Part shown: positions 53,196-64,000 of the stretch, in pieces
Position numbering within the stretch: position 1 is the first letter of the stretch
Layout: every line of letters begins with the position of its first letter
NCBI RefSeq assembly: GCF_001434055.1
Contig: NZ_AZCZ01000002.1
Span: forward strand, 3,472-67,471
Reading direction: 5' to 3'
Source: Levilactobacillus parabrevis ATCC 53295
Lineage (GTDB): Bacteria; Bacillota; Bacilli; Lactobacillales; Lactobacillaceae
DNA length: 64,000 nt
Notes under the pieces: generated by a model
Told to the model about the DNA's origin: nothing
What the model saw: the letters and a program-made list of their open reading frames with translations, nothing else
The model's database searches: none
Program-made: the position numbers and the translations under genes

Positions 53196-53789
53196 ATGGC
53201 ACAATACAGTGCTTCAATGATTACGCATTCGTTCTGGTTTAACGAATTTTCCCAGTACCTAGAACTTCGTGAGCAAGGCATCAGTGATGATGATATTCGC
53301 GAGATGAGCGTTGATGAGAACTACTTTCAACAACAATCTAAGGCACGGTCTTTGGACATGGTGCGGGTCGTTAAACAACGTGTGGATACATTGGATGATG
53401 ATTATTTTGATCTTTTTCCATCATTGGATATGGCCAATCAGAAACTGGTTAATCTCGTCGCTAGTGTGAAGTGTAACCAGCTATTTGACGACTTCATGTA
53501 TGAGGTCTACCGGAGTGAATTGCTCCTGGGGGATGCTAAGTTACATAGTTATGAAGTAGAAGCTTTTTTTAATCAGAAGCAAGTTGATAGTCTGCAAATT
53601 GCAGCTTGGACGGAGCAGACTGTTCGGCGCTTGTCTGGGACGTTTAAGACTTTTCTCCGTGAGGCTGATTTACTCGAGGACCAGGGGGACTATGACTTGG
53701 TAAAACGACCGTTGTTGGATACACGATTAGAATTTTTATTGCAAACAAAGGGAGCTACTCGGCAACTGGCAGCTCTTTTGGGGAGATAG
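53196..53789 (+). CDS. brxA: BREX protein BrxA (DUF1819)
   Basis: The first gene of the type 1 BREX cluster. 197 aa with the DUF1819 pattern, starting MAQYSASMITHSFWFNEFSQYLELREQG; it is helical throughout. BrxA is a small helix-rich DNA-binding component needed for full defence in studied systems. The Shine-Dalgarno is weak (AGAAAG). It is followed after one base by brxB, as in other BREX operons. Confidence 0.88.
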   Translation: MAQYSASMITHSFWFNEFSQYLELREQGISDDDIREMSVDENYFQQQSKARSLDMVRVVKQRVDTLDDDYFDLFPSLDMANQKLVNLVASVKCNQLFDDFMYEVYRSELLLGDAKLHSYEVEAFFNQKQVDSLQIAAWTEQTVRRLSGTFKTFLREADLLEDQGDYDLVKRPLLDTRLEFLLQTKGATRQLAALLGR

Positions 53790-53790
53790 T

Positions 53791-54369
53791 ATGACAAATA
53801 CGACAGAAAAATTGAAGCATTTACGTGAAAAGGTTGCGGATCCCGATTTTCAGCAAAGTCGGGGACTATCCAATGAAGTTTCCTACTATATTTTAGCTTT
53901 TGCACCACAGGATCAGCCATTGGTAACCGAAGAGATTCACAGCATGGAACAGCAATTGAATCGGGAAACGATTGGCATGGACATTGTTGAGTTTAATTTA
54001 TACAACATCATGTGGGAATTGTTAGATGATATGGGCATTCGCGAAGATGTCATAGCGATGGAAGCGTCTGATGGGATTGATTATCTAACAGAGCAATTGA
54101 ATAACGCGCTGGAAATGACAAGTTCTGATAATCTGTTCGTTCAATACATGCAGCGACACTTACCTAAGGATCCGGTGATTGTGTTTGTCACTGGAATTGG
54201 CGAAATCTTCCCATTAATCCGCGCACACAAGGTGCTTAACACCATGCATCAGATCGTAAATAGCGTCCCGGTAGTCTTCTTTTATCCCGGGACGTATGAT
54301 AGTTTAAGTCTCAGTATGCTTGGTGAGTCCAAAGAGGATAACTACTACCGAGCATTTCAGATCAATTAG
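53791..54369 (+). CDS. brxB: BREX protein BrxB (DUF1788)
   Basis: 192 aa of the DUF1788 family. The segment FVTGIGEIFPLIRAHKVLN and the closing FFYPGTYDSLSLSMLG are typical. Its role within the complex is unclear, but it is required for defence and methylation in studied type 1 systems. ATG 53791 lies one base after the brxA stop, with GGGGAG inside the brxA end, so the two are translationally coupled. Confidence 0.9.
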   Translation: MTNTTEKLKHLREKVADPDFQQSRGLSNEVSYYILAFAPQDQPLVTEEIHSMEQQLNRETIGMDIVEFNLYNIMWELLDDMGIREDVIAMEASDGIDYLTEQLNNALEMTSSDNLFVQYMQRHLPKDPVIVFVTGIGEIFPLIRAHKVLNTMHQIVNSVPVVFFYPGTYDSLSLSMLGESKEDNYYRAFQIN

Positions 54370-54381
54370 GGGAGAGCCGCA

Positions 54382-57300
54382 ATGAAAATTAAAGATATTT
54401 TTGCCAAATCGATTGACCGAGATATTAAAGGGGTCATTACGATTGGCGATGAGCAAGATGCAAACGTTAAACAGGAATTAGAAGAATACGTGGTGACCAA
54501 GGAACTGGATAACCACTTCAAGGACTTCTTCGCGGCCTATGCGGAGGGCATTCACCACGATACGACTAATATGGGTGTCTGGATCTCCGGGTTCTTTGGA
54601 TCTGGGAAATCTCATTTCTTGAAAATTCTAGCTTATTTATTGGAAAACCGAGAAGTTGCTGGGAAGAAGGCCCTCGATTACTTCGTTGATGATCAGAAGA
54701 TTCACGATCAGGGAACCTTAGCTGACATGAAGTTGGCGACCACGGTGCCGAACGAGGTCATGCTGTTCAACATTGATTCCAAGGCCAAGAATGGTAATAA
54801 GTCGCAAAAGGATGCCATCCTTAATGTTTTCCTCCAGGTTTTTAACGAACAGTTGGGCTTGTTTGGCGCTGACTTTTGGATTGCTGATTTGGAACGTGAT
54901 CTGATTGCACAAGGAAAATATGACGAATTTCAAGCGAAATTTCAGGAATTGGATCGGCAACATCGCGAGTGGAAGGACGCACGTAATGCCTATGCCTTCT
55001 TGAAGGGAACCATTCGTGATACGTTGGTTGGTATTGGCTTTATGTCGACGGATGATGCCAATGGTTTTATCGACCAACTGAAGAAGGAATATCCGGTTAG
55101 CGTGGAGAGCTTTGCCAAATTAGTCAATCAATACATTGAAAAGCAAGAGCCTAACTATCACATGGTTTTTCTAGTAGATGAAGTTGGGCAATACATCGGA
55201 TCTAGTCAACAGCGGATGCTTAATCTGCAGAGTATTGTTGAAGATCTAGGGACTTACACGCATGGTAAGGCGTGGGTTATTGTCACAAGTCAACAGGCGA
55301 TTGATAAGGTGACCACCAACATTAATGGTCAAGATTTCTCCAAGATTCAGGGCCGGTTCAAGACACGGATTGCGATGTCTTCAGCAAACGTTGATGAGGT
55401 GATTCAAAAGCGACTGCTTGCAAAGACGGACAGTAGCGAGCGGTTGTTGGAAGCCACCTTTGGAGACAATCAGCACGTCATTAATAACTTAATCAGCTTT
55501 GATGGCAAAGAAGAACGGAAGCGTTACGACAACGCGAAGATGTTTGCTGATCTTTATCCGTTTGTCCCTTACCAAATCTTCCTACTGCAAGATACATTGA
55601 CGGCGATTCGGGAGAATGGGTCTGATGGAAAGCATTTGGCCAACGGTGAACGATCAATGTTGGCTGTGTTCCAGGAATCGGCACGACGTTTAGAGAATCG
55701 CGATACAAAAGTTTTAGTTCCATTTAGCATTTTCTTCCAGGGACTGAGTCACTTCTTGGATCATACCCATATGATTGTGATTCAGCGGGCACAGAACAAT
55801 GAATTGATCAATCCAACGGGGGAAGATAATCCCTTCGCTGTTCAGGTTCTGGAAACTTTGTTCATGGTAAAGTACGTTCAAGACTTTGACGCCACTTTGA
55901 ATAATTTGGTGACGCTGATGATTGATTCGATCGATACGGACCGGATTGAATTGGAAGCCAAGGTTAAACAAGCCTTGCAGGTACTGCAAGAACAAAATAT
56001 TGTTGAAAAGACCAGTAAGGGCTATGAGTTCTTAACCGATGCGGAACAGGACATCAGTAAGCAGATTCAACGGCAAAACGTGGATTCTGGAGATATCTCA
56101 CAGGCGATTGGGGAGTACCTCTTCAGCAGTGCTGCAATTTCAAAGCGCTACACCTATCCAAAGCTGAAGCAGCAGTATACCTTCGTCTTTAATCAGTGGG
56201 TGGATGATCGTCCAGTTGGTCAGACTAATCAAGATATTAACCTGAAGATTTCTACAGTTGAAAATGTAGATAATCATGAGGATATCGAATTACGACGGCA
56301 ATCGAGTTCGCCAGAACAGCCGCAGATTATTATCGATCTGCCACAGGAACGACAATATGCCGATGACCAGCAGCAAGTATTGCGGATTCAGAAGTTCATT
56401 TTAAATCCTCAGGAGCAGTCGCAGGATGCCCGTTCACAACGAATCGTGGACTTAAAGAAGACGGAGCTATCTTCGTTGAAGGCTACTGTGGCTCAGGAAC
56501 TCTTGGAGGTGCTCCAACGCGCGGACATTTACGTGCAAGGTGAGCGAATTGACGCTGGGACAAAGGATTTCTTTGCCCGGTTAGCACAGGCGCAGGAGCA
56601 GTTGATTAACGAAATCTATCGTAACTTAGACTACATTAGTGTGGTTAAGCAAGAAAGTGACGTTGTCGCGCTCTTCAAAGACACCAATGAATTAGTCAAG
56701 ACCGATGAAAATGCGCGGGCCGTTCAAGCCGTCTTGGAACGGATTAACCGCGAGTATTCGGGCCATAATAAGATCTCCTACAAGTCCATTTTAGAACGAT
56801 TCAGTAAAGTGCCTTATGGATATCGTGAGATTGATACCAAATGGTTAGTTGCCAGACTTTTCGCTGATGCTAAGCTAAAAGTTTATGTGAACGGTGAAGC
56901 ACTCAGTCTACGTGCAGAATCGTCGGCCAACGAGTTGGCCAAATACTTCCTTAAGCGGCAGTATATTGATGCTGTTCAAGTGGAACCACGCCAAGCGATT
57001 AGCGAACAGAAGAAGAAAGATCTACGAAAGGTGGCAAAGGAGGTCTTTGGCAAGGAGTCGTTTAGCGATGCCGAGGATGACACTTTGATGCACGAGTTGC
57101 AGGATGCGGTGACTCATGAACGTGATGCTGTGGCAGTTTATGCCAATAAGGATGGATTCTATCCGGGCCACGACGTTTTGCAAGACGGAATTGATCTGAT
57201 GAACAAATTGTTGGTACAGCATGATACCGATAAGTTCTATGATCTGATTAGCCAAAGACGAGAAGACCTGCTGTACTGGCATGACGAGATGGAAGACGAT

Positions 57301-58053
57301 GGTATCAATGAATTCTATCACAGTGCAACGCAACAGAAAATTTGGCAGGATGCGCATTTCCAACAGAATGTTTTCGCGCATTCCAAAGAATTTGTCACTA
57401 GTCCACAGGTCAAAGACTTGATTGCGCAAATTGATAAGATTATGCGTCAACGGCCACAGGGTAAAACTAAAAAGCTTAACGACTTGGTAGAAGCCTTTCG
57501 GACAGCATTTAGTACCGAATTCGATGCAGGCTTGGGTGACACTCAGAGTAAAATTGAGGATGAACAGGCTGCCACGGAGAGTTATGCGGAGGAGCACCAG
57601 CTAACGCGTGAATTTGAAAGCAGGATTAAGCAAGACTTTATGCACCTGTTGGAAAACGCACGGGATGCGACCACTTTAAACGAACTCTTTGTCGTGCCGC
57701 AACAAGCGCAGAAGCGACGGGAAGCTTTGACCAAAGAAATGGATCGGTTGTTGGCTATGCGGGCTGAAGCAGCAGATCGGGCGAGTCACGAGAAAGATGA
57801 TAATACAGGTAACGGTCGAAACACATTGTCTAGAGTTACACCAGGTTTAGGTTCAGGACCCGATCCTGAATCAGGCTCGACTGGTAAGGTAGTGGTAGAG
57901 AAGGAACCTAAGAATGTTAGCGCCAAAACCTTGCCGATGGATCAGACCTGGCGTTTGAGCAACTCTCAGGACATTGACGTTAAAGTTGAACAACTGAGAA
58001 CAATCCTCAAACAACAACTAAAGGATAATGGCAAAATTGATTTTGAACTGTAG
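54382..58053 (+). CDS. brxC: BREX ATPase BrxC
   Basis: A large cytoplasmic P-loop protein of 1223 aa (DUF6079 type) and a core BREX component. Walker A GFFGSGKS lies at about 70-77 in the characteristic GVWISGFFGSGKSHFLK. A Walker B-like MVFLVDEVGQY is near 262. Long helical and coiled-coil regions fill the C-terminal half, and a low-complexity Gly/Ser/Pro stretch lies near 1155-1175. It follows brxB by 12 bp. Confidence 0.93.
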   Translation: MKIKDIFAKSIDRDIKGVITIGDEQDANVKQELEEYVVTKELDNHFKDFFAAYAEGIHHDTTNMGVWISGFFGSGKSHFLKILAYLLENREVAGKKALDYFVDDQKIHDQGTLADMKLATTVPNEVMLFNIDSKAKNGNKSQKDAILNVFLQVFNEQLGLFGADFWIADLERDLIAQGKYDEFQAKFQELDRQHREWKDARNAYAFLKGTIRDTLVGIGFMSTDDANGFIDQLKKEYPVSVESFAKLVNQYIEKQEPNYHMVFLVDEVGQYIGSSQQRMLNLQSIVEDLGTYTHGKAWVIVTSQQAIDKVTTNINGQDFSKIQGRFKTRIAMSSANVDEVIQKRLLAKTDSSERLLEATFGDNQHVINNLISFDGKEERKRYDNAKMFADLYPFVPYQIFLLQDTLTAIRENGSDGKHLANGERSMLAVFQESARRLENRDTKVLVPFSIFFQGLSHFLDHTHMIVIQRAQNNELINPTGEDNPFAVQVLETLFMVKYVQDFDATLNNLVTLMIDSIDTDRIELEAKVKQALQVLQEQNIVEKTSKGYEFLTDAEQDISKQIQRQNVDSGDISQAIGEYLFSSAAISKRYTYPKLKQQYTFVFNQWVDDRPVGQTNQDINLKISTVENVDNHEDIELRRQSSSPEQPQIIIDLPQERQYADDQQQVLRIQKFILNPQEQSQDARSQRIVDLKKTELSSLKATVAQELLEVLQRADIYVQGERIDAGTKDFFARLAQAQEQLINEIYRNLDYISVVKQESDVVALFKDTNELVKTDENARAVQAVLERINREYSGHNKISYKSILERFSKVPYGYREIDTKWLVARLFADAKLKVYVNGEALSLRAESSANELAKYFLKRQYIDAVQVEPRQAISEQKKKDLRKVAKEVFGKESFSDAEDDTLMHELQDAVTHERDAVAVYANKDGFYPGHDVLQDGIDLMNKLLVQHDTDKFYDLISQRREDLLYWHDEMEDDGINEFYHSATQQKIWQDAHFQQNVFAHSKEFVTSPQVKDLIAQIDKIMRQRPQGKTKKLNDLVEAFRTAFSTEFDAGLGDTQSKIEDEQAATESYAEEHQLTREFESRIKQDFMHLLENARDATTLNELFVVPQQAQKRREALTKEMDRLLAMRAEAADRASHEKDDNTGNGRNTLSRVTPGLGSGPDPESGSTGKVVVEKEPKNVSAKTLPMDQTWRLSNSQDIDVKVEQLRTILKQQLKDNGKIDFEL

Positions 58054-58085
58054 TCAAGATTTGAGATGGAGTGAAGGAAAAGTAT

Positions 58086-61000
58086 ATGGATAAAACAGCA
58101 ATTAAAAAGTTTGCGGTTGCGGCACGTAATTCACTCATCGAAAGTATCAGGTTGAAGGCGGCAACGCTGGGAATTACTGAAACGGGTGCCAGTGACAAGC
58201 TGTCAGTCTCAACATCAGAAATTGAATATTACGTAGATGATCAACACGGAATCACAGGGCATGATATCGTGAAACGTCAAAAGCTTGTTGACGAGCTGAA
58301 TCAACGGTCACGTAAGAATGACTTTGCCACAGCATTCAATGATTTGGTCGAAGAGGTCGCCTACACGTGGTTCAACCGAATCATTGCCATTCGCTTTATG
58401 GAAGTTAACGACTATTTGCCTAGTGGTATCCGGGTGTTATCAAGCACCGAGAACCGTAATGTTCCAGATATTATGGTAAATACAGGGGATGCCGAAGAGG
58501 ATTTGGGTGGATTTACATTCAAAGAACATGCATTAATTGATCGGGCAATGGACACGGAAAAACCGAGCGACATGGACGCAGAGTACCAGATGTTATTCAT
58601 CAAACAGGCGAACGCTTTACACAAGAATCTGCCTTATTTATTCGAAACAACGAATGATTATGCAGAATTATTGTTCACTCCAAGCTATCACGATGGCGTT
58701 ATTCAGCATTTAATTACCGACGTCAGCGAGGATGATTTCAATGTGGCCGTGGGCGGTCAGGTCGAGATTATTGGGTGGCTGTATCAGTACTATAATACGG
58801 AACCACATGATCAAGTTGTGAATATTACTGGTGGCCCTGTCAAAAAGAATGACATTCCAGCCGCTACCCAATTGTTCACCACGGATTGGGTTGTTAAATA
58901 CATGGTAGATAATTCGTTGGGAAAGTATTGGCTAGAGCGACACTCCGAGAGCAATCTTAAAGATAAGCTGAAGTTTCTACTTCCCGGCGATATTGAAGTG
59001 ATTAGTGACGACGAATCAGTTGAAGATCTAAAAATCATTGATAATGCCTTGGGATCAGGCCATATTCTGGTATATGCCTTTGATGTTTTGATGGAGATCT
59101 ATCAAGAACAAGGTTACTCTGTCAGAGATGCCGCTACTCTAATTATCAAGAATAATTTATTTGGACTGGAAATTGACCAGCGGGCGTATCAATTATCGTA
59201 TTTTGCGTTGATGATGAAGGCTCGTCAATTTAATCGTCGCGCACTGCGTAAGGGCAGCTTTGAACCGAACGTTTTTGTTTTTGAAGATACCGACGATATT
59301 CCAGAAGAATTCATGACGCGGATACCTAAGGAGTCTCAAGCTGATTTGGCGGACATTATTGACAGATTCAGTAATGCACGTGAACTAGGATCAATTATCG
59401 ATTTTGATAATAAAGACTATAATTTTGAAGCTTTGCGGGATGCTATCAAATCGGTAGAGGTCGAGGGACTGGATGTTTTTGGTCTACAAGAGACGAAAGA
59501 TAAGCTATTACGAGTTCTATCGATTGCTGAAATTTTGACTAAACATTATGAAGTGGTCGTAACGAATCCACCTTACATGAACAAAATGGATGCAGCACTG
59601 AAAAAGTACGTCAAAAAGCACTATGCAGATTATTCTGGTGATCTATTCTCGGTATTTATTTTCAATAACAGTAATTTAGCTAAAGTTGGTGGCTATTCCG
59701 CCTTCATGACGCCATTCGTTTGGATGTTCATCAAGACTTATGAAAAGCTGCGGAAGTACTTAATTGAAACGAAGAAGATTGATAGTCTCATTCAGATGGA
59801 ATACTCTGCATTTGAAGAAGCAACGGTACCGATTAATACGTTTGTGATGAAGAATGTGACAAACGAGGCTGTGGGCACTTACGTGAAACTTTCAGCGTTC
59901 AAGGGTGGCATGGATGTCCAGAAGGATAAGGTTCTTGAGGCGATAGCTAACCCTGATACTAGCTACCTTTATCGAACTAACCAAGCGAACTTTGCTAAGA
60001 TTCCGGGAATGCCAATTGCTTATTGGGCTAGTGCTAACTTGATTCATGACTTTGAAGTTGGTACGCGCATGGGTGAACTAGTAGACGCTCGACAAGGTAT
60101 TGCGACGACAGACAACAAAAGATTTTTACGCATGTGGTTTGAAATACAGAAGTCGGCGATTAATTTTAATGCCACATCTACTCAGGACGCATTGTCATCA
60201 GGAATGAAGTGGTTTCCTTGCAATAAGGGAGGCGCATATCGAAAATGGTATGGAAACTATGACTATGTAATCAATTATCAAAATGATGGTTCGGAAATTA
60301 AAAATAATGTACTCAGAAAATATCCTTATTTAAAGACTCCTGACTTTGTAGTAAAAAACACTAGTTATTACTTTCGTGAAGCGATAACTTGGCCCAAAAT
60401 AACTTCAGGTCAATTTAGTGTACTGTATAGGGAAAATGGTTCTATACCGGAAACAGCTGGAAATGAAGCTTTCTCCACAGATAAGAATCAGCTGCTGTAT
60501 ATTCTCGCGTTTTTAGGCACGAAAGTAACGAATAAAATTATGCGTACGTTAAACCCAACAATAAACTCTCAAGTCGGTGACTTCAATAACGTTCCTGTTC
60601 TTTTAAGTAATGGTCTGAAGCCCATACGCATAGTAAAAGAACTTATTAACATTGCAAAAGATGATTGGGATTGCTTTGAGATCTCCTGGGACTTCAACAC
60701 TCATCCACTCCTAATCCACATCGCTGACGATAAGCGAAACGAAGTGAATGGCAAGCTTAAAAATGCGTTTAATTTATGGCAAAATGAAGCTCAAGATCGG
60801 TTTGATCAGCTCAAGGCGAATGAAGAAGAGTTAAATCGAATCTTCATTGATTTGTATGGCCTGAACGATGAACTAACACCAGAAGTAGCTGATAAGGATG
60901 TTTCTGTAAGGCTGGCTGACGAAGAACGCGACATTAAGTCTTTCCTGTCGTATTTCGTGGGTGTTGTGCTTGGTCGTTATTCATTAGATGTTGAAGGGTT

Positions 61001-61652
61001 GGCCTTTGCTGGTGGTGAATGGGATTCGAGCAAGTACCGGTCATTTGTGCCAAACGAAGATAATCTATTGATGCTAAACGATACCGACTACTTTGATGAT
61101 TCACGTGATATTATTTATCGTTTGAAGGAATTTTTAACGGCTACTTTTGGGCCAGAAACGGTTGATGAGAATATTACTTATATTGCCTCAGTGATTGGGA
61201 AAAAGGCTGATTCAGATGAAGCGGCCATTCGTCGGTACTTTGTGGAAGACTTCTTTAAGGATCACAAGAAGATCTATCAAAAGCGGCCAATATATTGGGA
61301 GTATAGCAGTGGCAAGAACAATGGGTTCAAGGCATTGATGTACCTCCATCGCTACGATTCTGATGAATTGGCCATGATTCGGACAAACTATCTGCATCCG
61401 TTGCAGGGCAAGTACGAATTACGAATTGGTCAATTGACTCAGCTAGCAAGTAATGAGACGGTAACGAGTCAAAAGAAGCGCTATGAAAAGGAACTCAAGC
61501 ATTTAAACCAGCAGTTAGCTGAAATCATTAAGTATGATCCGGTGATTCAGCATATTGCTAACCAGAAAATTGAACTTGATTTAGATGATGGAGTTGTTGT
61601 GAATTACGACAAGCTTCAAGATGGTAGCACCATTTTGTCTAAGTTAAAATAA
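58086..61652 (+). CDS. pglX: BREX adenine-specific DNA methyltransferase PglX (expressed copy)
   Basis: This enzyme methylates adenine N6 in the BREX recognition site, marking self DNA, and it sets specificity. 1188 aa from ATG 58086 (GAAGGA 7 nt upstream). Motif I is NALGSGH near 320 and motif IV NPPY near 495. The target-recognition region follows: residues about 626-664 are encoded by a 116-bp repeat shared with the inverted copy, and about 868-883 by a second shared block. Between and before these blocks the two copies diverge, which marks variable specificity modules. Confidence 0.94.
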   Translation: MDKTAIKKFAVAARNSLIESIRLKAATLGITETGASDKLSVSTSEIEYYVDDQHGITGHDIVKRQKLVDELNQRSRKNDFATAFNDLVEEVAYTWFNRIIAIRFMEVNDYLPSGIRVLSSTENRNVPDIMVNTGDAEEDLGGFTFKEHALIDRAMDTEKPSDMDAEYQMLFIKQANALHKNLPYLFETTNDYAELLFTPSYHDGVIQHLITDVSEDDFNVAVGGQVEIIGWLYQYYNTEPHDQVVNITGGPVKKNDIPAATQLFTTDWVVKYMVDNSLGKYWLERHSESNLKDKLKFLLPGDIEVISDDESVEDLKIIDNALGSGHILVYAFDVLMEIYQEQGYSVRDAATLIIKNNLFGLEIDQRAYQLSYFALMMKARQFNRRALRKGSFEPNVFVFEDTDDIPEEFMTRIPKESQADLADIIDRFSNARELGSIIDFDNKDYNFEALRDAIKSVEVEGLDVFGLQETKDKLLRVLSIAEILTKHYEVVVTNPPYMNKMDAALKKYVKKHYADYSGDLFSVFIFNNSNLAKVGGYSAFMTPFVWMFIKTYEKLRKYLIETKKIDSLIQMEYSAFEEATVPINTFVMKNVTNEAVGTYVKLSAFKGGMDVQKDKVLEAIANPDTSYLYRTNQANFAKIPGMPIAYWASANLIHDFEVGTRMGELVDARQGIATTDNKRFLRMWFEIQKSAINFNATSTQDALSSGMKWFPCNKGGAYRKWYGNYDYVINYQNDGSEIKNNVLRKYPYLKTPDFVVKNTSYYFREAITWPKITSGQFSVLYRENGSIPETAGNEAFSTDKNQLLYILAFLGTKVTNKIMRTLNPTINSQVGDFNNVPVLLSNGLKPIRIVKELINIAKDDWDCFEISWDFNTHPLLIHIADDKRNEVNGKLKNAFNLWQNEAQDRFDQLKANEEELNRIFIDLYGLNDELTPEVADKDVSVRLADEERDIKSFLSYFVGVVLGRYSLDVEGLAFAGGEWDSSKYRSFVPNEDNLLMLNDTDYFDDSRDIIYRLKEFLTATFGPETVDENITYIASVIGKKADSDEAAIRRYFVEDFFKDHKKIYQKRPIYWEYSSGKNNGFKALMYLHRYDSDELAMIRTNYLHPLQGKYELRIGQLTQLASNETVTSQKKRYEKELKHLNQQLAEIIKYDPVIQHIANQKIELDLDDGVVVNYDKLQDGSTILSKLK
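59962..60077 (+). repeat. Inverted repeat IR1, left copy (116 bp, perfect)
   Basis: It is identical, in inverted orientation, to 63522-63637. It encodes residues around YRTNQANFAKIPGMPIAYWA in both pglX copies, in the same reading frame. Sequence diverges sharply on both sides. Confidence 0.95.
60210..60267 (+). repeat. Inverted homology block IR2, left copy (58 bp, 7 mismatches)
   Basis: It matches 63332-63389 inverted at 51 of 58 positions. It encodes WFPCNKGGAYRKW in both copies. Confidence 0.85.
60687..60733 (+). repeat. Inverted repeat IR3, left copy (47 bp, 2 mismatches)
   Basis: It matches 62884-62930 inverted. It encodes WDF-THPLL-HIADD, in frame in both copies. The silent cassette ends 12 codons later, while the expressed gene continues for about 305 residues. 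Confidence 0.92.
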
Positions 61653-61655
61653 GCC

Positions 61656-61691
61656 AAAGGGGACTTCTCAAACCGATGAGAAGCCCCCTTT
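61656..61691. terminator. Convergent terminator between pglX and the recombinase
   Basis: The stem AAAGGGGACTTCTC/GAGAAGCCCCCTTT has one mismatch and an 8-nt loop. Confidence 0.85.
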
Positions 61692-61710
61692 GTGCCAAGT
61701 TATGTGCCAA
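61691..61710 (+). promoter_or_regulatory. Direct TGTGCCAA pair, possible recombinase arm site
   Basis: TGTGCCAA occurs twice (61691-61698 and 61703-61710) at the recombinase 3' end. The inverse, TTGGCACA, occurs at 62824-62831 just upstream of the recombinase start. Flanking the gene in inverted orientation fits recombinase binding sites; this is inference. Confidence 0.35.
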
Positions 61711-62799
61711 CTATTTTGAGATATTATTCAGGATTGAAATGATCTTGTCTTGATCCTGAGATTCAAGTTCTTTGATGATGTGTAGGTATGTTGATTGGGT
61801 GGTTGTGATGTTACTGTGTCCCAATCTACGAGAGACTGATAAGACACTAACCCCTTTGTAGAGCAGGATTGAAGCGTGTGTATGTCGTAAACCATGAAAA
61901 GTGATTCGAGGAATGTTGAGCTGCTCTAGCTTTTCTGTCAGGATCTTATTGATTTCGGCGCTAACCAAGATATGACCGGTTGCGTTCATGAAAATGGGAC
62001 GATTTGAACTCAGAAAGTGCAGATCAAGAAATTCTTGAAGTTTCTGACTAGTTTGTTGGTCAATGGCAATGTCTCGGACCGAGGACTGGGTCTTGGTCTT
62101 CATAAAACCGGTCTTATACTTGTAATCCCAAGCTTTGTTCACAGCAATTAGATTGTTTTTTAGATCGATATCGCTTGGCGTGAGCCCTACGATTTCACCA
62201 TAACGCATGCCAGTGACAGCAGCTAAATACACGATCATTTCGCCAATTTGTGATGTATCGAGATTGAGTAGTAGTTTTTTCCAATCATCGTAGTTCAGAG
62301 TCTTAGAAACTTTAGGTCGTTCACAACCTGTGATCACAGCCTTTCTGGTCGGGTCAGTGGTAATTATTTTTTCATCTAAGGCTTCTAGAATGCAGGCACG
62401 AAGCTGTTTGTGGAAACACGAAACCGTTCTCTTGGCATGACTTTCGGCAAATTTATTTAGCTGTTCTTGGTAGATAAGTTTGGTTAAATCTTTCAATTTG
62501 AGGTCGCCAAAAAGCTCGTTGGCATGTTTGGCGGTATTTTGGTATTTGTTATAGGTAATTGGTGTTACGGCGTTTTGTTTGTAAACTTGAATCCACCGCC
62601 GATAGTAGGAGACTAAGGATTCACTACCAGACTGGACAGTTGTGAGGTTGGGATGCTCCGTTTGAACTTTACTAGCAGCTAAAATAGCCTCAGATTTGAG
62701 CAGAAAGCCTGATTTACGAAGCTTCTTGTACTTTCCATTTTGGTCCTTATAGGAGATTTCGTATTGCCAAGCATTACCACGTTTACGATAACTTACCAT
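61711..62799 (-). CDS. Tyrosine recombinase inside the BREX cluster
   Basis: 362 aa, phage/Tn916-type integrase. The N-terminal arm-binding domain (about 1-50, YRKRGNAWQYEISYKDQNGK) is followed by a SAM-like core-binding domain (60-165) and the catalytic domain. Catalytic residues are visible: Arg in TGMRYGEIVGL, Lys in MKTKTQSS, His-x-x-Arg in HGLRHTHAS, His in LGHSN and the nucleophile Tyr in TQSTYLH. It lies between the expressed pglX and the inverted cassette, in the invertible segment. The likely job is inversion of pglX modules. It starts after GGAGGG. Confidence 0.93.
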   Translation of the reverse strand: MVSYRKRGNAWQYEISYKDQNGKYKKLRKSGFLLKSEAILAASKVQTEHPNLTTVQSGSESLVSYYRRWIQVYKQNAVTPITYNKYQNTAKHANELFGDLKLKDLTKLIYQEQLNKFAESHAKRTVSCFHKQLRACILEALDEKIITTDPTRKAVITGCERPKVSKTLNYDDWKKLLLNLDTSQIGEMIVYLAAVTGMRYGEIVGLTPSDIDLKNNLIAVNKAWDYKYKTGFMKTKTQSSVRDIAIDQQTSQKLQEFLDLHFLSSNRPIFMNATGHILVSAEINKILTEKLEQLNIPRITFHGLRHTHASILLYKGVSVLSVSRRLGHSNITTTQSTYLHIIKELESQDQDKIISILNNISK

Positions 62800-62823
62800 G
62801 TTTTTCCCTCCATTATGTGTCTA

Positions 62824-62831
62824 TTGGCACA
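62824..62831 (-). promoter_or_regulatory. TTGGCACA, inverted partner of the 61691 sites
   Basis: This 8-bp word is the reverse complement of the two copies at the other end of the recombinase gene. It is short and could be chance. Confidence 0.3.
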
Positions 62832-62852
62832 ATTTTGTCACAGATTGACTAG

Positions 62853-64000
62853 TTAGCCAACGGGAGAACGACAGTATGATAGGTTATCGTCAGCGATGTG
62901 GGTTAGGAGTGGATGAGTGGTGAAGTCCCAAGCGGTTTCATATAGATTCCAATCTGTTTGGGCAATATCTATACATTTCTTCACCAAAGTAAGATCAATG
63001 TCTTTTGTCAGCAAAACTGGAAAATTAACAAAGTTACCGGTTTTTAAATGAATTGTCGGATTTAGTAAATTGAATATATGTCCAGCAACCTTCGTATTCA
63101 ATAATGCCATCAAATATAGTAGATCCATCTTTTTATAGAAAGCAGACATGCCTGTAGTTTCAGGTATGAAGCCATTATCGACTAATCTTGCACCAAATTC
63201 ACCACTCGTAATATCAGACCAAGTTATCGCTTCACGAAAGTAATAATCGGTGTTTTGTGGTCGTGACCGTACTTTACCATTTTTATCAGTAAAATTACGA
63301 ATTTCATGACCGTTATTTTTCCAGTTTACAACATAATCATAGTTTCCAAACCATTTTCGATAAGCGCCACCTTTGTTACAAGGAAACCATTTTTTTTGAG
63401 ACTTAACTGACTCAGATATACTAACAGATCTGAAGCTTATTTTCTTATTATCTACTTCATACCAAATCCGTAAAAACTTATTATTATCCCCCGTCTGAAG
63501 ACCAACCTTGGCATCAACCAATTCACCCATGCGCGTACCAACTTCAAAGTCATGAATCAAGTTAGCACTAGCCCAATAAGCAATTGGCATTCCCGGAATC
63601 TTAGCAAAGTTCGCTTGGTTAGTTCGATAAAGGTAGCCCACATCGGTATTCTTAACTGCCGATAAATAAGCTTGTTCCTTTTTCTGCTGCGAATCAAAGT
63701 TAACCAGTCGTTCGTAAGTCCCAATGAAATTAGCAATAGTCTGGTGTCTGAAGATGAATGTTGTAGATTGAACAACCTCTCCACCAATTTCTTCAAACGC
63801 GCGTGTTCCCAGGTGTGCCATATTAATCAACGTATCTGCTTTCAGAACTGAGCGTAATTTTTCAAAACTCGAAAGGAACATCCAAGCATGTTGCGTAATC
63901 ATAGCATAATAACCATTCGTATCAGTTAAACTTCGTAGGCGTTCCATGAATACCGCGAAGAGATCCGACTTACTATTTGGAAAATGCTTTTTAACGTATT
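62853..64000 (-). CDS. Silent inverted pglX cassette, truncated C-terminus, cut by the window edge
   Basis: The frame is open through base 64000 (YVKKHF..SDLFAVF continues the PglX match upstream of the apparent ATG 63947), so the gene extends beyond the window. It aligns with expressed PglX from just after motif IV. An N-terminal module (about 100 aa) is diverged, the block encoded by IR1 is identical, a second module of about 197 aa is diverged apart from IR2, and IR3 follows. It stops 12 codons after IR3 (LSYCRSPVG) and lacks the last 305 residues. It has no promoter in view and is probably a donor of specificity modules. Confidence 0.9.
   Translation of the reverse strand, partial: YVKKHFPNSKSDLFAVFMERLRSLTDTNGYYAMITQHAWMFLSSFEKLRSVLKADTLINMAHLGTRAFEEIGGEVVQSTTFIFRHQTIANFIGTYERLVNFDSQQKKEQAYLSAVKNTDVGYLYRTNQANFAKIPGMPIAYWASANLIHDFEVGTRMGELVDAKVGLQTGDNNKFLRIWYEVDNKKISFRSVSISESVKSQKKWFPCNKGGAYRKWFGNYDYVVNWKNNGHEIRNFTDKNGKVRSRPQNTDYYFREAITWSDITSGEFGARLVDNGFIPETTGMSAFYKKMDLLYLMALLNTKVAGHIFNLLNPTIHLKTGNFVNFPVLLTKDIDLTLVKKCIDIAQTDWNLYETAWDFTTHPLLTHIADDNLSYCRSPVG
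62884..62930 (-). repeat. Inverted repeat IR3, right copy
   Basis: Partner of 60687-60733 (45 of 47 positions), in frame with the silent cassette. Confidence 0.92.
63332..63389 (-). repeat. Inverted homology block IR2, right copy
   Basis: Partner of 60210-60267 (51 of 58 positions). Confidence 0.85.
63522..63637 (-). repeat. Inverted repeat IR1, right copy
   Basis: Exact reverse complement of 59962-60077. The frame is preserved: the first base is the second codon position in both genes. Confidence 0.95.

Follow-up and report, generated by a model that had tools for sequence, protein, structure and literature searches.

What does an opposed, truncated second copy of a specificity gene do inside a phage defence locus, beside a recombinase gene? 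The question is raised by the bacteriophage exclusion (BREX) locus of Levilactobacillus parabrevis ATCC 53295, which reaches past the end of the window analysed here (64,000 nt; contig NZ_AZCZ01000002.1, positions 3,472 to 67,471, forward strand). In BREX, one specificity protein both marks self and attacks non-self, so a change of its DNA motif is useful against phages and dangerous to the host. As a previous interpretation of the DNA without database searches (the sequence-only reading) had noted, the locus carries a full pglX gene on the plus strand and an opposed partial pglX on the minus strand, flanking a tyrosine recombinase gene. We consider it very probable that this is an invertible Type 1 BREX specificity gene with three borders, two exchangeable cassettes (the methyltransferase domain, MTD, and the target recognition domain, TRD), and a C-terminal domain (CTD) whose presence depends on the parity of the inversions; NTD denotes the N-terminal domain. 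Window positions equal positions in the extracted locus L003 (C46:61000-80000 of the contig) plus 57528, and the contig (121,923 bases) supplies 54 kb more sequence past the window end. The elements concerned are as follows.

58071..61652, plus strand: full-length operon copy of pglX, 1193 amino acids (NCBIfam BREX_1_MTaseX, 1300 bits, cut-off 500)
58668..58804, plus strand: border A arm 1, residues 200-245, NTD/MTD joint (135/137 against the partner's reverse complement)
58805..59961, plus strand: module 1a, MTD, class I (about 51% nucleotide identity to module 1b)
59043-59063 and 59565-59576, plus strand: what we take to be the SAM motif and the NPPY motif (residues 499-502), within module 1a
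59787..59843, plus strand: sixth-base loop of the active copy, LIQMEYSAFEEATVPINTF, aligned with E. coli BrxX loop 587-601
59962..60077, plus strand: border B arm 1, residues 631-669, MTD/TRD hinge (116/116)
60078..60686, plus strand: module 2a, TRD (57% nucleotide identity to module 2b; 4 of 5 aligned base-contact positions differ)
60687..60733, plus strand: border C arm 1, residues 873-888, near the TRD/CTD joint (45/47)
60734..61652, plus strand: CTD and stop codon, in this copy only
61711..62799, minus strand: tyrosine recombinase, 362 amino acids (Pfam Phage_integrase, Arm-DNA-bind_4 and SAM-like domains)
62853..64000, continuing to 65003, minus strand: silent partial pglX, 717 codons (NCBIfam BREX_1_MTaseX positions 194-907 of 1210)
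62884..62930, minus strand: border C arm 2 (45/47)
62931..63521, minus strand: module 2b, TRD
63522..63637, minus strand: border B arm 2 (116/116)
63638..64000, continuing to 64866, minus strand: module 1b, MTD, class II
63750-63821, minus strand: sixth-base loop of the silent copy, MAHLGTRAFEEIGGEVVQSTTFIF, in module 1b
64867-65003, beyond the window, minus strand: border A arm 2, the third inverted repeat, 137 nt

Alignment of the silent with the full pglX gives three near-identical blocks (A, B and C) amid a diverged background, with A-to-B spacings of 1157 and 1229 nt (~51% nucleotide identity) and B-to-C spacings of 609 and 591 nt (57%). The two inverted repeats described earlier, a perfect one of 116 bp and one of 47 bp with two mismatches, are present with those exact lengths and mismatches, and the sequence between and before them is as diverged as had been stated. 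A third border, expected past 64 kb near the NPPY motif, does lie past 64 kb, and its placement near NPPY is ruled out: border A covers residues 200-245, upstream of the whole methyltransferase domain, and NPPY is inside the first cassette. The silent copy (L003 5325-7475, 2151 nt) starts at border A and stops just past border C; it lacks the NTD and CTD and retains the SAM and NPPY motifs and an open frame.

E. coli BrxX is divided into NTD (1-210), MTD (211-650), TRD (651-837) and CTD (838-1205), with flexible hinge loops at 638-675 (PMC11842806). Border positions, transferred to BrxX by eye from an alignment, correspond to 183-225 (A), 640-677 (B) and 862-873 followed by a gap (C). Border A thus straddles the NTD/MTD joint (210/211), B matches the hinge, and C lies ~25 residues inside the CTD. 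With all three borders at or near domain joints of PglX, the MTD and TRD appear to be separate cassettes. A chance origin of the borders is excluded by their length and by their recurrence across the panel of loci described below.

Recombination at inverted copies of the three borders would swap the MTD (module 1) and the TRD (module 2) between the operon copy and the silent copy. Border A alone would shift everything, B the TRD and CTD, and C the CTD alone; two inversions would leave PglX at full length with a new MTD, a new TRD or both, and a single one would yield PglX without the CTD. All eight inversion combinations, modelled in silico with a single crossover at each border, retained an open frame, which bears out the earlier statement that the repeats are in frame in both copies. 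Even numbers of inversions produce proteins of 1193, 1187, 1211 and 1217 amino acids with the CTD, and odd numbers produce proteins of 897, 891, 915 and 921 amino acids that lack it and end in ...HIADDNLSYCRSPVG; here the recombinase gene begins 53 nt past the pglX stop, in the same direction as the operon. Any one inversion strips the CTD and a second brings it back, so specificity switching and PglX truncation are coupled, and because the locus has a single CTD, each specificity change goes via a CTD-less PglX. The sequence-only reading had posited specificity forms rather than an on/off switch: those forms stand, and four CTD-less states have to be placed beside them.

Alternative orientations are present among relatives. 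Loci whose outer domains are 91-100% identical are set apart by inversions that the model predicts: of the MTD alone, the TRD alone, both, or C alone. For the TRD alone, L037 and L038 share an inverted match over residues 887-631 (704 nt, 94.5%) with their MTDs in place. Reciprocal exchange of the MTD alone separates an L. plantarum K25 plasmid (L082) from an L. brevis TMW 1.2108 plasmid (L085), with flanks 99.0-99.5% identical and inverted MTDs 98.8 and 97.4% identical, and also separates L049 from L085 (95.5-98.8% for the inverted MTDs over both pairs). L049 and L056 differ by MTD and TRD together (residues 886-200, 2077 nt, 96.9%), and L056 and L085 have the same operon MTD (99-100%) with unrelated TRDs. 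For C alone, the 2121 nt between the C borders are inverted between L059 and L083 (92%); these two loci are 91% alike in the N-terminal domain and have different TRDs. In L059 and L061 the pglX frame is truncated, to 935 and 914 amino acids counting upstream codons, and the CTD belongs to the opposite copy. L084 (L. brevis TMW 1.2111) matches L085 without a difference over 16,889 nt and adds no evidence. The relatives cover all three double rearrangements and one single one and, together with the anatomy, back what had been proposed earlier: three borders, two modules that can be exchanged separately, and four PglX forms of full length.

The placement of class I MTDs (14 in the operon copy vs 11 in the silent copy, counted without L040, L056, L057 and L058, and with L048 given the class of L047) was also mapped on a quick backbone tree of NTD, CTD and recombinase. 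It requires 8 changes, compared with a shuffled mean of 8.5 (244 of 500 shuffles were as low), so that MTD placement appears to be independent of descent.

Published resequencing of L. rhamnosus GG offers a further, suggestive sign of exchange. Single-nucleotide polymorphisms (SNPs) tabulated between strains KCTC 5033 and ATCC 53103 (Table 1 of PMC6256098) include 2158707 C>T and 2158710 G>A in the shorter BREX methyltransferase gene, and 2164871 A>G and 2164868 T>C in the longer one. Matched across the two genes, the positions sum to 4323578 in both cases and the bases are reciprocal; judged by the tabulated positions, these SNPs would fit an exchange between border A arms (~residue 220 of the longer gene). 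One more SNP (2158719) has no counterpart. Among the changes in evolved clones (Table 2 of the same paper), at 2160010 and 2163622, the latter is near residue 635 and is compatible with border B. The word 'inversion' was not found in PMC6256098.

How widely is this design distributed? A pglX match is present in 53 of 397 Lactobacillaceae genomes, and in at least 34 of these 53 there are opposite-strand matches on one contig. No opposed copies were seen in the 25 other pglX-bearing genomes of a drawn set of 398 Bacilli; at most two pglX candidates were scored per genome in both sets, and the opposed-copy counts are possibly lower bounds. Modules were compared in a panel of 26 two-copy loci (L003 and L035-L059); L060-L070 were kept apart as partial contigs, different architectures or odd layouts, and the modules of L071-L081 and L097-L099 fell outside the analysis. 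Border A (residues 203-243) is 92-100% identical between copies in all 25 panel loci having both, border B (634-653) reaches ~90% or more in 21 of 26, and border C (866-888) reaches at least 80% in 11 of 26. The MTDs are 45-51% alike in 24 of 25 loci (77% in L058), and the TRDs 41-76% in 26. Blocks alike between copies recur at ~200-245 (25/26), ~632-653 (25/26) and ~861-889 (18/26), along with weaker matches within modules. The three-border anatomy thus recurs in Lactobacillaceae, with border C the least conserved.

Several loci have unusual layouts. L060, L063, L064 and L065 encode NTD-MTD-TRD, then an inverted TRD-MTD with the recombinase, and then an operon-strand CTD segment beyond the recombinase; PglX is possibly split into two polypeptides there. 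In L058 (genome G115) both MTDs are of class I and 77% alike in nucleotides, and the operon pglX and recombinase matches are in broken frames. The silent copy of L040 and L067 starts near border B and holds the TRD only, leaving two borders. L068 and L069 (G260), alike in layout and orientation, lie near the two ends of a 2.33-Mb contig and are perhaps the overlap of a circular chromosome. A PglX-recombinase fusion, suspected from open-frame lengths in G337 and G305, was rejected: the silent frame of L038 stops before the recombinase, and L037 has no open frame above 700 amino acids on that strand.

Recognition in E. coli BrxX is divided between TRD residues 681, 684, 751, 784 and 823, which read bases 1-4, and the MTD loop 587-601, which fixes base 6 (PMC11842806). 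The equivalent loop falls within module 1, and exchange of the two modules would therefore be combinatorial, with bases 1-4 read by one and base 6 by the other. The earlier description of two recognition modules is accordingly right as to their number; the first is the whole catalytic domain, and its recognition part is probably the sixth-base loop. Loops fall into class I (..QMEYSAFEEATVPINT.. plus a variant QMETHA..), class II (..HLGTRAFEEIGGEVVQST..) and class III (..HMENNVMGIAFGTAVT..), the last with no counterpart of known motif here. In the alignment, the enzymes of E. fergusonii (GCTAAT) and Acinetobacter NEB394 (GTAGAT) have loops similar to class I, and those of E. coli (GGTAAG) and Salmonella (GATCAG) have loops similar to class II. 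The active copy in our window is of class I and is predicted to specify T as last base; the silent copy, of class II, is predicted to specify G.

The two copies differ in loop class in 26 of the 27 loci with two MTDs (the panel minus L048 and L040, with three plasmids added; six of the 27 have almost the same backbone), the exception being L058, where one copy's loop has a four-residue insertion. The five aligned TRD contact positions read QAKTN and VQQTH in the window's copies, and at least two of five differ in 28 of 28 pairs; L043 and L058 each have a gap at one contact position, which was scored as a mismatch, and ignoring it leaves three or more differences in either pair. Neither count includes L048, and both contain close relatives and hence are not independent. 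In the 11 pairs with TRDs at least 55% alike, contacts differ at 36 of 55 positions, compared with 668 of 1848 over all TRD columns; 35 of 2000 random five-column sets reach the share seen at the contacts.

The parity rule may have a function of its own. As a safety device, CTD-less PglX would methylate without restricting, and the genome would be re-marked with the new motif before a second inversion re-arms restriction; we offer this tentatively and think it rather unlikely. C-terminal PglX changes that unlink restriction from modification are reported in one review and one research paper, and CTD-less pglX states exist in nature (L059, L061), alongside the geometry and frames found here. 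CTD residues are also reported to act in DNA binding, which counts against a CTD-less PglX being active.

The recombinase is intact in its Phage_integrase, arm-binding and SAM-like domains, and its alignment contains what are presumably the R, HxxR, GH and Y motifs. It lies between the two pglX copies in 26 of 26 panel loci (broken in two frames in L058). Nine Levilactobacillus contigs encode a recombinase 78-94% identical to it, the best being that of L. huananensis, and one of Lactiplantibacillus dongliensis is 82% identical. It also shares 42% identity over 303 residues with a recombinase on contig C74 of the same genome, encoded between hsdS and an inverted partial hsdS. The C74 locus (L096:2992-10936) consists of a Type I restriction-modification (RM) set hsdR-hsdM-hsdS, the recombinase and the inverted partial hsdS, with inverted repeats of 26-56 nt, and is a second, HsdS-type locus of inverting layout with a related recombinase.

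Conserved third codon positions form a separate block at each border, and border C is down to 19 identical nt in L046-L048. L049 and L059 are rearranged at C even though the block search gave no C block for either, which speaks for a short specific site at C. Pneumococcal PsrA is required for only one of three inversions, that at the 15-bp inverted repeat IR1 (PMC4948785). By analogy, the recombinase here would be the agent at one border at least: it may act at C, and A and B could recombine also by homology.

Hallmarks of phase variation are thus in place, with in-frame inverted repeats in the active and silent copy and an intact recombinase alongside, and switching is probably ongoing in this strain. 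Several results weigh against the invertible two-cassette design. Identity between copies is below 90% at border B in 5 of 26 panel loci and below 80% at C in 15 of 26, and the block search returned no C block in 8 of 26 loci and no B block in one (L057). In a 24-genome comparison (without L048, a near copy of L047, and L040, which has no silent MTD), the own-genome copy is closer than that of the nearest other genome in 19 of 24 cases for A, 9 for B and 4 for C. The excess of within-genome likeness is strong for A alone, so only A clearly shows concerted evolution, and its use as proof for all borders was dropped. A single state is present in this strain's assembly. Since the rearranged loci come from other species or from plasmids, exchange of alleles between strains also plays a part, most of all in the replacement of TRDs. 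The T/G rule rests on four enzymes of known motif, and E. coli/E. fergusonii loop hybrids lost defence (PMC11842806), so loop swaps are not trivially tolerated. Finally, a recombinase core common to A, B and C was not convincingly found in position profiles: A/B similarity was not above shuffles (47 and 28 of 200 as high), A/C was weakly above them in both orientations (4 and 6 of 200), and B/C in one orientation (3/200) and not the other (111/200).

Could simpler explanations account for the same locus? In simple on/off phase variation the inverted copy would chiefly truncate or restore PglX by inversion at C, the module differences being a by-product. Each single inversion does take away the CTD, two reference assemblies are in the CTD-less state, and a C inversion, TRD differences aside, is what sets L059 apart from L083. 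We nevertheless judge this improbable: relatives differ by exact MTD-only, TRD-only and MTD+TRD exchanges with the CTD in place, and an on/off switch would need one border and no diverged second MTD and TRD, yet loop class differs in 26/27 loci and TRD contacts in 28/28 pairs.

Less likely still is a relic, in which an old duplicate has its borders kept alike by gene conversion, with no ongoing inversion and the recombinase a leftover. Conversion can yield long identical tracts, and B and C are only weakly alike in some loci; yet conversion can neither invert the CTD-recombinase segment (L059, L061) nor place one MTD reciprocally in the other copy (L082/L085), and the recombinase has kept its domains and its position between the copies in the panel. 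The partial copy might instead be expressed as a second, independent or regulatory methyltransferase, given its SAM and NPPY motifs and its 717-codon open frame. We regard this too as very improbable, since the copy has neither NTD nor CTD. In L. paracasei Zhang, where a regulatory role was suggested for the second methyltransferase, it was inactivation of pglX, and not of that gene, that abolished N6-methyladenine (PMC10164179). Inversion at three borders with exchange of two cassettes therefore remains our preferred explanation.

The rest of the locus is that of a defence operon in the order brxA, brxB, brxC, full pglX (+), tyrosine recombinase (-), partial pglX (-), pglZ (+) and rarA. The genes outside the invertible region are as follows.

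53196..53789, plus strand: brxA, open reading frame (Pfam BrxA, 154 bits)
53791..54369, plus strand: brxB, open reading frame (Pfam BrxB, 124 bits)
54382..58053, plus strand: brxC (NCBIfam BREX_BrxC, 1102 bits, cut-off 400)
From 65089, plus strand: pglZ, type A (NCBIfam PglZ, 433 bits, cut-off 270)

The Type 1 set brxA, brxB, brxC, pglX and type A pglZ is complete by Pfam and NCBIfam. Extending the sequence past 64 kb, in the expectation of a third border, pglZ and brxL, recovered the first two; rarA, and not brxL, follows pglZ (L003:7561-11473, window numbering 65089-69001). There are no matches to brxL (PF13337) in the whole genome of this strain. Among 23 other genomes it is missing from all 11 of Levilactobacillus (8 have this pglX, and 3 are known only to encode this recombinase) and from both of genus g38, and is present in all 10 of the rest. 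The locus is therefore described as BREX type 1 without brxL, and this BREX lineage seems to manage without BrxL. A terminator-like hairpin of 16 pairs (61655-61692) lies between the 3' ends of pglX and the recombinase gene, one of 4 such sites in the scanned stretch (shuffles mean 2.9). A promoter scan of L003 4050-7700 gave 8 promoter-like sites compared with a shuffle mean of 9.8, and hence no excess. Tandem repeats of ~51 nt occur 3' of rarA (L003:11489-11872, window numbering 69017-69400).

Inverting genes of this kind have precedents. The earlier work on pglX switching is reportedly that of Goldfarb 2015, and Milman, Yelin and Kishony 2023 are said to describe gene-altering programmed inversions, in systems that resemble this one in pairing a gene with an inverted shorter copy. 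PMC7513527 and PMC11842806 both mention phase variation or duplication of pglX, citing earlier work. Lactobacillus Type 1 BREX loci with an inverted second pglX and a recombinase, cited as known in the sequence-only reading, are indeed on record, a full and a partial PglX flanking an integrase being reported in L. rhamnosus (GG, LRHMDP2/3) (PMC7513527). The likeness lies in the full and partial pglX with a recombinase; the L. rhamnosus accounts, in the portions available, are without three borders at domain joints, MTD/TRD cassettes, a sixth-base loop or a CTD parity rule. Wording on inversion, recombinase, integrase or shuffling is absent from the main text of a 2026 BREX survey (PMC12839542), and no description of MTD/TRD cassettes, three borders or a parity rule in pglX was found in the literature searched; key earlier studies may hold part of it. 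The inverted pglX with recombinase is thus already known, and we do not claim that the three-border design is absent from print.

A close parallel is offered by inverting hsdS systems, such as the S. suis four-way switch and pneumococcal SpnIII/Spn556II with PsrA (PMC7394358, PMC4948785), which share the inverted second variable copy, the recombinase at the locus, repeats before and between recognition domains, and combinatorial specificities. Unlike HsdS, PglX is a fused methyltransferase and specificity protein, one of the swapped modules is catalytic, and the third border sets the presence of the CTD. An hsdR/hsdM/hsdS set is absent at this locus, which is BREX; it works like an inverting Type I RM hsdS and is not one.

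If the model is true, a cell line would have four BREX motifs available through exchange of a catalytic and a recognition domain, plus four CTD-less states, and a population could vary the DNA motif that it marks as its own. The model predicts that the last base, T or G, is set by module 1 and the first four bases by module 2. The design points to PglX domain joints that are tolerated in nature, which would be useful where published loop hybrids failed. Parity, should it act as a safety device, would explain how a defence system changes its self mark without attacking its own chromosome, and the design makes such safe switching of the self mark directly testable in harmless lactic acid bacteria.

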